The notes under the pieces are model-generated. The model saw only the letters and a list, made by a program, of their open reading frames with translations, did not search any database and was not told the origin of the DNA. The position numbers and the translations under genes are program-made. A DNA stretch of 40,200 nucleotides from Candidatus Peregrinibacteria bacterium (GTDB taxonomy: Bacteria > Patescibacteriota > Gracilibacteria > CAIRYL01 > GCA-016699755): contig JANTGK010000009.1 in assembly GCA_024762935.1 (NCBI GenBank), forward strand, positions 1 to 40,200, given 5' to 3'. Shown piece by piece: positions 12,637 through 15,981 of this stretch (position 1 is the first letter of the stretch; each line of letters starts with the position of its first letter).

Positions 12637-13191
12637 ATGGATCAACCAGGTAATGCCCACATTGATGAGCTTGTAATAAAAGCACAAGATGGCTGTAAGA
12701 ATTCCTTTGGTGCTCTTTATGATATCTATCTTGATGCAATCTATCGTTATATATTCTTTCGTGTCTCTTCAACTCAAGTTGCTGAAGACCTTACCGGAGA
12801 AGTCTTTTTTAAAGTCCTAAAATCACTCAAAAAATACAAGAAGCGAAAAAATATGCCATTTTCTGCATGGCTGTTTCGAATAGCGAAAAATATAATCATA
12901 GATTACTACAGAAAACAGTTACACACAGAAGAAATACCTGAATCACTCATAGATGAATCAGAAACTGCTGATTCTCAAAAAGAAACTGTTCTCACTATTG
13001 AAAAAAAACGACTTCTCATGGGCATTAAACAGCTTCCTGAAATGCAAGCCCAATCAATAATTCTGAAGTATTTTTCGGATCTCAAAAATTCAGAAATATC
13101 ACAGGTTCTCGAAAAAAGTGAAACAGCTGTCCGAATCTTGCAATCCCGCGGACTCAAACGACTCCGAGAAATACTGAATGAAACCAAATGA
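12637..13191 (+). CDS. ECF-type RNA polymerase sigma factor
   Basis: The 184-residue protein has sigma region 2 (ALYDIYLDAIYRYIFFRV, then AEDLTGEVFFKVLKSL and PFSAWLFRIAKNIIIDYYRK) and region 4, a helix-turn-helix (LPEMQAQSIILKYFSDLKN, SEISQVLEKSETAVRILQSR). Regions 1 and 3 are absent, as in extracytoplasmic-function sigmas. It should bind core RNA polymerase and direct it to a small regulon. No anti-sigma gene lies next to it. Its stop overlaps the murC start (ATGA), so expression is tied to cell-wall synthesis. About 180 bases precede it, with no convincing promoter. Confidence 0.92.
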   Translation: MDQPGNAHIDELVIKAQDGCKNSFGALYDIYLDAIYRYIFFRVSSTQVAEDLTGEVFFKVLKSLKKYKKRKNMPFSAWLFRIAKNIIIDYYRKQLHTEEIPESLIDESETADSQKETVLTIEKKRLLMGIKQLPEMQAQSIILKYFSDLKNSEISQVLEKSETAVRILQSRGLKRLREILNETK

Positions 13192-14504
13192 TTGCTCATT
13201 TTATAGGTATCGGCGGCATAGGAATGAGTGCCCTCGCACGATATTTTTCGAGTAGAGGAGTGACTGTTACTGGTTCAGATATGGGTTCATCCCCACTAAT
13301 CGAAGAATTGAAGTCTGAAGGAATCCATATATATACCGAGCATAACAAAGACAATATTCACTCCGGCATGTATCAGGTGGTGTATTCTGAGGCAATACCC
13401 GAAGAAAACCCAGAAAGACAGGCTGCAAGGGAAATGGGTATCACACAAAAATCATACTTTGCAGCATTGGGAGATATTTCTCGAACAAAACTGACCATTT
13501 CCATTTGTGGTACCCATGGAAAATCAACAACAACTGCAATGGCGGGGCTCGCTCTAGAGGCAGCAGGAGAAGATCCCCTTGTTATACTCGGAACAAAAGT
13601 TTTTGAATGGGAAGGAAAAAACATACGAATAGCTCAAGGTACCGCACCACTCTGTGCTCCAAAAAACAGTAGTTTCTTTCTCGTAGAATCATGTGAATAT
13701 CATAATTCTTTTCTTCATCTTGACCCGAACATCATTGTCGTTACTAATGTTGAGCCAGACCATCTTGATTTTTTTGGTACAGAAGAACGATATTACAATG
13801 CTTTTCGGACATTCGCTGGAAAACTCAATGAAACAGGAGTTATTATTGCTGATTTTTCTAATCCTAAAATAAAGCGACTCTTTGACAATACATCTGCCCA
13901 TAAAATCAGTACACATGAGTTCTACCGGCAGGTTCCAACACTGAGCATTCCTGGAAAACACAATCGAGAAAATGCCGCATGTGTCCTTGCTATTGCAAAA
14001 ACAATCGGATCCCCCATGAATGAAGTGAAAAATTCTCTCAGAAATTTTCATGGAACTTGGAGACGTTTTGAAAAAAAAGGAGAGAAAAATGGGATTCTTG
14101 TTTTTGATGACTATGCACACCATCCAACAGAAATAAAAGCGACACTCACATCATTTCGAGAAAAATTTCCAAAAAATAAGATTTGGGCTGTTTTTCAACC
14201 ACATCAGTATTCTCGAACTCGAGAATTTCTTAAAGAGTTTTCCAGAAGCTTTCAAGATGCTGATGAAATCCTTATTCCCAATATATATCGCGTCAGAGAT
14301 AGCGAAGAAGATGTGCAATCCGTGAGTGCAGAAATACTCGTATCAGAAATTAAAAAACAGAAGAAACACGTCAGATATACAGAAGACTTCAAAAAGACAG
14401 TAACACTCTTGCGCAAAGAAGCAAAAAAGGAAGATGTTATTGTCACTATTGGTGCAGGACCAATTTTTGAAATAGGAGAAGATTTCTTAAACACTCCTGC
14501 TTAA
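13188..14504 (+). CDS. murC: UDP-N-acetylmuramate--L-alanine ligase
   Basis: MurC adds the first L-Ala to UDP-MurNAc in the cytoplasmic stage of peptidoglycan synthesis. The N-terminal Rossmann motif [14 protein letters not shown] is at 7-20. The ATP P-loop GTHGKST is at 108-114. The central domain has [14 protein letters not shown] and the C-terminal ligase domain has [15 protein letters not shown] and FQPHQYSRT. The length of 438 residues is normal. The start overlaps the sigma-factor stop, implying translational coupling. No other mur genes are in the window. Confidence 0.95.
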
Positions 14505-14538
14505 TCATCAGAAAAAATATTTTTTTATTTCCACCAGT

Positions 14539-15981
14539 ATGAATTCCTACAATATGCATCCCCTTCTTGTTTCTTTTATTCTTTTTTTTGCGTTGGCGTT
14601 GCCTCAATCTCTTGCAGTCAATACAGATACACAAATTTTTTCTGATGTTTCTCCCTCAATGTCCAATGCAGATGCCATTAAATATGTAAAAGAACGAGGA
14701 CTTGTAAAAGGCTATGAAGACGGGACCTTTGCGCCGAAAAAAAATATTAATCGGTATGACTTTATAAAAATTATTATTGCTGCAAAATTTTCTGAAGATG
14801 ACATCAGTTCATGTGATCAGAAAGCATATGCTTTTCCAGATGTCCCAGAAGATCAGTGGTTTACACCATATGTCTGTACAGCAAAAAAAAATGAGATTAT
14901 TAAGGGATATGATGATGGAACGTTTCGGGGACAAGACAATGTCTCTCTTTTAGAATCACTAAAAATAGTACTAGAAACATACGCAGATGAACTTTCTCAC
15001 CCAATAGAAGCCAATACAAATCAAGACTGGTACATGCCGTATGTACAAGCAGGAGAAACAAATGGACTCATTCAAGGGTTCGAAAAGGAAGACATAGAGA
15101 AAAAGATATCACGAGGTGATATGGCCTCTTATATTTATCAAATTGAAACAGAAGCACAACAGATGCCAGAAACATCTTCAGAAAGTACTCTCTTTGCACA
15201 ATGCGTCACCGAATCAGGAGCTGTGTTTTATGGAACAAATTGGTGCCCACATTGTACAAAACAAAAAGAAAAATTTGGCGAGAATATTGTCGATATACAT
15301 TTTGTCGATTGCGATAAAGAAAGTGACCTCTGTCATGAAAAAGATATTACAGCATATCCCACGTGGATATTTGGAAATGGAGAAAAAGCTGTTGGAACAC
15401 AATCACGAGAAGAACTCTCCAAAAAAACAGGATGCCCTCTTGCTCAAGATGAGAAAATAAAAGAGGAAGATGCGTCTTTCTCACAAACAGATCTCCCTCA
15501 AAAAGGTGATACTGTTGCCATCATTACAACAAACATGGGAGATATAAAAATCCGACTTTTCCCTGATTACGCTCCAAAAGCAGTAGAAAATTTTACCACT
15601 CATGCAGAACAGGGGTACTACAATGGAACTATCTTTCACCGCGTTATTAAAGACTTTATGATTCAAGGAGGTGATCCCACTGGAACTGGCACAGGAGGAG
15701 AAAGTATTTGGGGGAAAAATTTTGAAGATGAATTCTCTCCAAACCTCAAAAATATAAAAGGAGCCCTTTCGATGGCAAACGCCGGACCAGCAACCAATGC
15801 CTCACAATTTTTTATTGTTCAAAAAACTGAAACACCGTGGCTTGATGGGAAACATACGGTATTCGGACAAGTGTATGGAACACTAGAGACAGTAGATGCA
15901 ATAGCAAACGTAAAAACAACCCCAGAAGATAAACCTATAGAAGATGTTATTATAGAATCCATCGATATAGGGGAATACTGA
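14539..15981 (+). CDS. Exported SLH x3 - thioredoxin (CPHC) - cyclophilin fusion
   Basis: The 480-residue protein combines three functions. After a signal peptide (about 1-26, ending SLA) come three S-layer-homology repeats: FSDVSPS... with [19 protein letters not shown] (34-78), [14 protein letters not shown] with KGYDDGTF (99-148), and a weaker third (162-203). A thioredoxin-like domain follows (about 221-299) with redox motif CPHC at 236-239 and the segment [17 protein letters not shown], resembling the thioredoxin domain fused to VKOR. The C-terminus (322-478) is a cyclophilin-type peptidyl-prolyl isomerase with FHRVI (366-370), [16 protein letters not shown] and [10 protein letters not shown], so catalytic Arg368 and the proline-pocket residues are present. 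It probably sits in the cell wall and folds exported cysteine-containing proteins (inference). A second ATG at 14554 is also possible. Confidence 0.9.

Follow-up and report, generated by a model that had tools for sequence, protein, structure and literature searches.

An SLH–thioredoxin–cyclophilin fusion as a candidate wall-tethered folding enzyme in a Peregrinibacteria genome

In bacteria without an outer membrane, the folding catalysts known to act beyond the membrane are either lipoproteins or membrane proteins. Among cyclophilins, PpiA of Lactococcus and SlrA of the pneumococcus are lipoproteins on the cell surface (PMC3307742, PMC11853100). For disulfide chemistry, a Synechococcus protein joins a VKOR membrane domain to a thioredoxin domain with a CPHC site (3kp9/3kp8). 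CPR bacteria are enriched in a thiol-disulfide oxidoreductase family, fam000318, often encoded beside VKOR (PMC6744442). Exported oxidases that lack a partner and are recycled by small oxidants are also known (PMC12453122). Attachment to the wall has been described for SpaA, in which the primary SCWP pocket takes an Arg from the first SLH repeat, a Gly and a Lys from the second, and a Trp from the third (PMC6081394).

Here we describe a protein with a new domain architecture built of known families: three SLH repeats, a VKOR-type thioredoxin domain and a cyclophilin. It is encoded at positions 14539 to 15981 (forward strand) of the window, the whole stretch of 40,200 nucleotides that was analysed. 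A sequence-only reading had proposed that these domains lie in this order on one polypeptide. This is borne out by a single, uninterrupted frame of 480 codons with no internal stops, whose 480-residue product matches the Pfam families SLH (97.5 bits, in three stretches), Pro_isomerase (176.8 bits) and Thioredoxin (PF00085; 25.6 bits, only just above the cut-off of 23.5 bits). The genome comprises 1.38 Mb in 82 contigs, with a completeness of 95.84%. Several families in its class read through TGA, like the UGA-recoded Gracilibacteria and Absconditabacteria, which points to a Patescibacterium.

The architecture appears to be rare. The search took in 353 genomes from the class and 380 from the phylum, together 694 different ones (G000-G693); no other match in them covers both the thioredoxin and the cyclophilin, and a scan of GTDB contigs and a plasmid collection returned single domains (thioredoxin or cyclophilin) and no second triple fusion. 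The triple architecture is known from one genome assembly, and our search of the open-access literature found no publication linking SLH, thioredoxin and cyclophilin. Pairwise fusions do occur in other families. One (G269, L136:2239-5082) is a protein of 948 residues in which DUF3352 is followed by three SLH repeats and a VKOR-type thioredoxin with CSFC replacing CPHC; another (G267) carries SLH and, further along, a thioredoxin with the site CPAC; a third (G295) has the order SH3-SLH-cyclophilin. Such counts of partial fusions are lower bounds, as the frames inspected were those that were conspicuously long.

In the thioredoxin tree, the domain of the fusion groups with a free lipoprotein thioredoxin from the same genome (93/78). 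The G267 fusion likewise groups with the free copy in that genome (97/94, starred). The starred branches force at least two origins of SLH–thioredoxin proteins, and the best tree has three; the cyclophilin tree gave no resolution of fusion origins. The closest relative of the SLH module is likewise a paralogue in the same genome. The fusion probably arose within the lineage from components that were there before it: a paralogous SLH anchor, one copy of the lipoprotein thioredoxin and the sole cyclophilin of the genome. Of more general interest is that folding enzymes have been joined to SLH anchors more than once.

An assembly or gene-calling error that fused separate genes would account for an architecture seen in one assembly, with no second copy in the genomes searched. 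Against this, the frame continues through both junctions, the SLH and thioredoxin parts are nearest to copies in the same genome, GC and GC3 are alike across the SLH, thioredoxin and cyclophilin parts, and the pairwise fusions come from independent assemblies. We therefore rejected a mis-join and consider an artefact highly improbable.

The three SLH repeats, all above the Pfam cut-off, lie at 14638..14763 (with pocket residues G58 and R72), 14833..14946 (W107 and G123, with E139 and K142 just beyond) and 15016..15153. The third is degenerate (GLIQG...ISRGD, with F-x-P absent) and retains W164 and R192. A model of the module (pLDDT 86.9, low solely in the signal peptide and tail) has a trimeric fold, and its top structural matches are the SLH trimers of Sap (3pyw) and SpaA (6cwf), ligand-bound forms included. 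The primary SpaA pocket (PMC6081394) maps onto R72, G123, K142 and W164, and a second SpaA-type pocket onto R192, G58 and W107; the residues of both are invariant across all 11 SLH modules aligned, and they comprise the TRAE-type Arg, the GIIxG Gly, Trp13 and the Lys. The anchor proposed in the earlier reading has an intact ligand pocket, and the SLH trimer would probably bind a wall polymer that is probably pyruvylated. The resemblance extends to the second repeat, which lacks Arg in SpaA and in the fusion alike. The fusion differs from Sap and SpaA in that its cargo is two folding enzymes rather than an S-layer protein, and in a likely disulfide at repeat 2.

SLH modules are widely used in this genome, in which 40 repeats were found. 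Other enzymes carried on SLH anchors include a sortase, CAP, M23 and a beta-propeller. The sortase sits behind an SLH module on contig C2 (L093:2597-3835, reverse strand; Pfam Sortase, 83.5 bits). Further SLH fusions at L081:1527-2717, L083:2998-4263, L091:1932-4574 and L087:2783-4408 carry CAP, an M23 peptidase, a beta-propeller (PF09826) and a zincin-like segment, the last with HELAH and a sub-threshold Pfam match.

The sequence-only reading took the protein to be exported. A putative signal peptide spans about residues 1-26 (14539..14616, forward strand), ending in LPQSLA with VN following. It is weak, its n-region being without Lys or Arg, and for this reason we grade export as likely only. 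The two genes upstream, on the same strand, encode an ECF-type sigma-70 factor (12637..13191) and a MurC-type Mur ligase (13188..14504). The ligase gene shares 4 nt with the sigma gene, and 34 nt lie between its end and the fusion; because of this spacing the three genes probably form one operon, with the sigma gene first. A scan for promoters and terminators gave no more sites than were found in shuffled sequences. The composition of this probable operon (12637-15981), with an ECF-type sigma factor, a MurC-type ligase and a putative wall-tethered folding enzyme, may hint at envelope-stress control.

The thioredoxin domain (15181..15444, forward strand) contains the CPHC site (C236/C239), a cis-proline (P274) and the further cysteines C222, C258, C265 and C299. 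We modelled it separately from the SLH module because a MAFFT alignment of mixed full-length sequences placed thioredoxin rows on the cyclophilin. When the family profile was compared with the PDB, the best matches came from the VKOR of Synechococcus and its thioredoxin domain: 3kp8 (E 4.8e-27) and 3kp9 (4.9e-26). The AlphaFold2 model (pLDDT 93.5) agrees with 3kp8 at a TM score of 0.91, with ordinary thioredoxins far behind. Given this agreement between profile and model, the VKOR-type label of the earlier reading is right. Neither of the outcomes that it had named as fatal, a frameshift or mis-join and a CPHC segment outside the thioredoxin fold, was encountered.

An alignment of 24 homologues has ten invariant columns, six of which are cysteines: the CXXC pair and four more. 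We predict that C222/C299 and C258/C265 form disulfides. All 24 homologues keep the equivalents of the outer pair C222/C299, which the cyanobacterial domain does not have. The fusion shares family, fold and CPHC with the Synechococcus protein and differs from it in this extra pair and in lacking the VKOR membrane domain. Like fam000318, it would be an exported CxxC protein of Patescibacteria; that family is described as MdbA-like and partly wall-anchored, and the passage on it (PMC6744442) reports no fusion to SLH or cyclophilin. In 17 genomes across the class, a member of the thioredoxin family of the fusion follows a VKOR match, 91-220 nt downstream, and this connects the family with oxidative folding. 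In one of these genomes (G048), VKOR and thioredoxin lie within an open frame of the same length and are probably fused.

The cyclophilin domain (15511..15975, forward strand) is the only copy in the genome. The structure models cover the SLH module and the thioredoxin domain, and the cyclophilin was judged from its plain sequence match. Its active-site set is complete by motif, as the earlier reading had held: FHR (R368), F373, Q376, MAN (M412/A413), F425, W434 and H439, which include the catalytic Arg, Phe, Gln, Trp and His. It is accordingly a predicted PPIase. A catalytically idle surface protein, such as an adhesin whose folds serve as binding modules, would be compatible with surface location alone; retention of the full cyclophilin site together with CPHC and the cis-proline leaves this idea with hardly any credence.

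Relatives encode the orthologous cyclophilin mostly as a free lipoprotein with a lipobox, and in one case with an N-terminal membrane segment (G001). PpiA and SlrA are similarly anchored extracytoplasmic cyclophilins. Unlike the fusion, they are held by a lipid or membrane anchor and have neither SLH repeats nor a thioredoxin domain. In three genomes (G002, G003 and G059) the cyclophilin gene adjoins or is near gltX; the window genome has its gltX on contig C38, with no cyclophilin there. The acidic linker between thioredoxin and cyclophilin (15445..15510, forward strand) retains FSQTDxPxKGD, a stretch found ahead of free cyclophilins in relatives. A separate combination occurs in genome G164 (L132:3549-4574), where a cyclophilin is fused to an FKBP-like domain, placing two different prolyl isomerases together; its signal peptide is not obvious.

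The earlier reading had proposed checking for a VKOR or DsbB partner, and this check came back empty. In the window genome, 95.8% complete so that about 4% may be missing from the searches, no VKOR was found by Pfam with positive controls or by a class-specific profile run without one. Searches for DsbB (PF02600) and DsbD/CcdA (PF02683) gave no match at E<=1, and control genomes did give matches. The searches gave no conventional redox partner, neither membrane oxidase nor reductase, to close the redox cycle, which counts against a tethered enzyme of two activities. One interpretation is that the domain serves as a reductase or isomerase, correcting wrong disulfides, and is no oxidase, in which case a reoxidation partner would be unnecessary. 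The failure to find VKOR or DsbB is in keeping with this, as is a wall tether that distances the enzyme from membrane oxidases. Counter to this, an electron donor of the DsbD/CcdA type was likewise not found, the family is coupled to VKOR, and CPHC carries the DsbA-type dipeptide. We consider this interpretation improbable.

If the domain is instead an oxidase, reoxidation may perhaps proceed via the free lipoprotein thioredoxin encoded on contig C38, which could act as a membrane-side relay, or via low-molecular-weight oxidants. Partner-less DsbA-type oxidases (PMC12453122) offer a possible analogy, in that they too perform extracytoplasmic thiol-disulfide catalysis without a dedicated membrane oxidase. 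The fusion differs from them in its thioredoxin subfamily and in having a wall tether and a PPIase domain.

The sequence-only reading named the protein at 287-2236 as a possible client. Beyond its ten cysteines we found nothing in support: it has no Pfam family above cut-off and no specific link to the fusion gene. The genome's own SLH proteins are better candidates, because of a conserved cysteine pair and even cysteine counts. C92 (just ahead of repeat 2) and C113 are both present in 8 of 11 SLH modules and both absent from the other 3, which suggests a likely disulfide at repeat 2. Mature cysteines are even in number in 12 of 13 SLH proteins sampled, by a criterion picked post hoc and covering sampled genome stretches. 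The exception has an NlpC/P60-like segment, and we infer that its catalytic cysteine must remain free, which would explain the odd count. Among sampled proteins more broadly, even outnumber odd counts by 21 to 9 in exported and 31 to 30 in cytosolic proteins, a weak difference (Fisher p 0.064). The SLH-anchored surface proteins of this genome are thus the predicted clients. Elsewhere on contig C38 (L079:2049-5768), an exported protein of 1239 residues with 40 cysteines is encoded near the free lipoprotein thioredoxin gene and is a possible client of that thioredoxin.

Looking across the entire analysis, we think it rather probable that the fusion is a wall-tethered disulfide oxidase or isomerase and prolyl isomerase, a folding catalyst with two activities. 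Of the wall-tethered folding station proposed earlier, the anchor, the thioredoxin and the cyclophilin stand; the oxidising or isomerising role is drawn from the CPHC motif and the kinship to VKOR. The SLH trimer would keep the enzyme on the wall polymer, the thioredoxin would form or reshuffle disulfides in freshly exported proteins, and the cyclophilin would accelerate cis/trans proline isomerisation in those same clients, presumably the genome's own SLH surface proteins, most with the conserved pair. Two neighbouring extracytoplasmic folding steps would then share one tether. Alternatively, the fusion may be an opportunistic anchor swap, in which two lipid-anchored enzymes were relocated to the wall and work independently, sharing localisation only. 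In favour of this, SLH is a general tether in this genome, thioredoxin and cyclophilin are each joined singly to SLH elsewhere, and acidic linkers separate the domains. We regard the swap as unlikely: both partners are extracytoplasmic folding catalysts with no other addition, and a joint role fits this better than chance.

More tentatively, and as less likely than not, we suggest that Gracilibacteria-type Patescibacteria repeatedly shifted oxidative folding from the membrane to the S-layer or wall zone when VKOR-type thioredoxins, and cyclophilins, became attached to SLH modules. Where VKOR is absent (the window genome and G267), the tethered thioredoxin would use an oxidant different from a membrane quinone oxidase, with disulfide-bonded SLH surface proteins as its main clients. 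If the two-activity reading is true, the folding of surface proteins in small uncultivated bacteria takes place right at the wall, with disulfide and proline chemistry on one enzyme, and the recharging of exported thioredoxins without VKOR or DsbB becomes testable.
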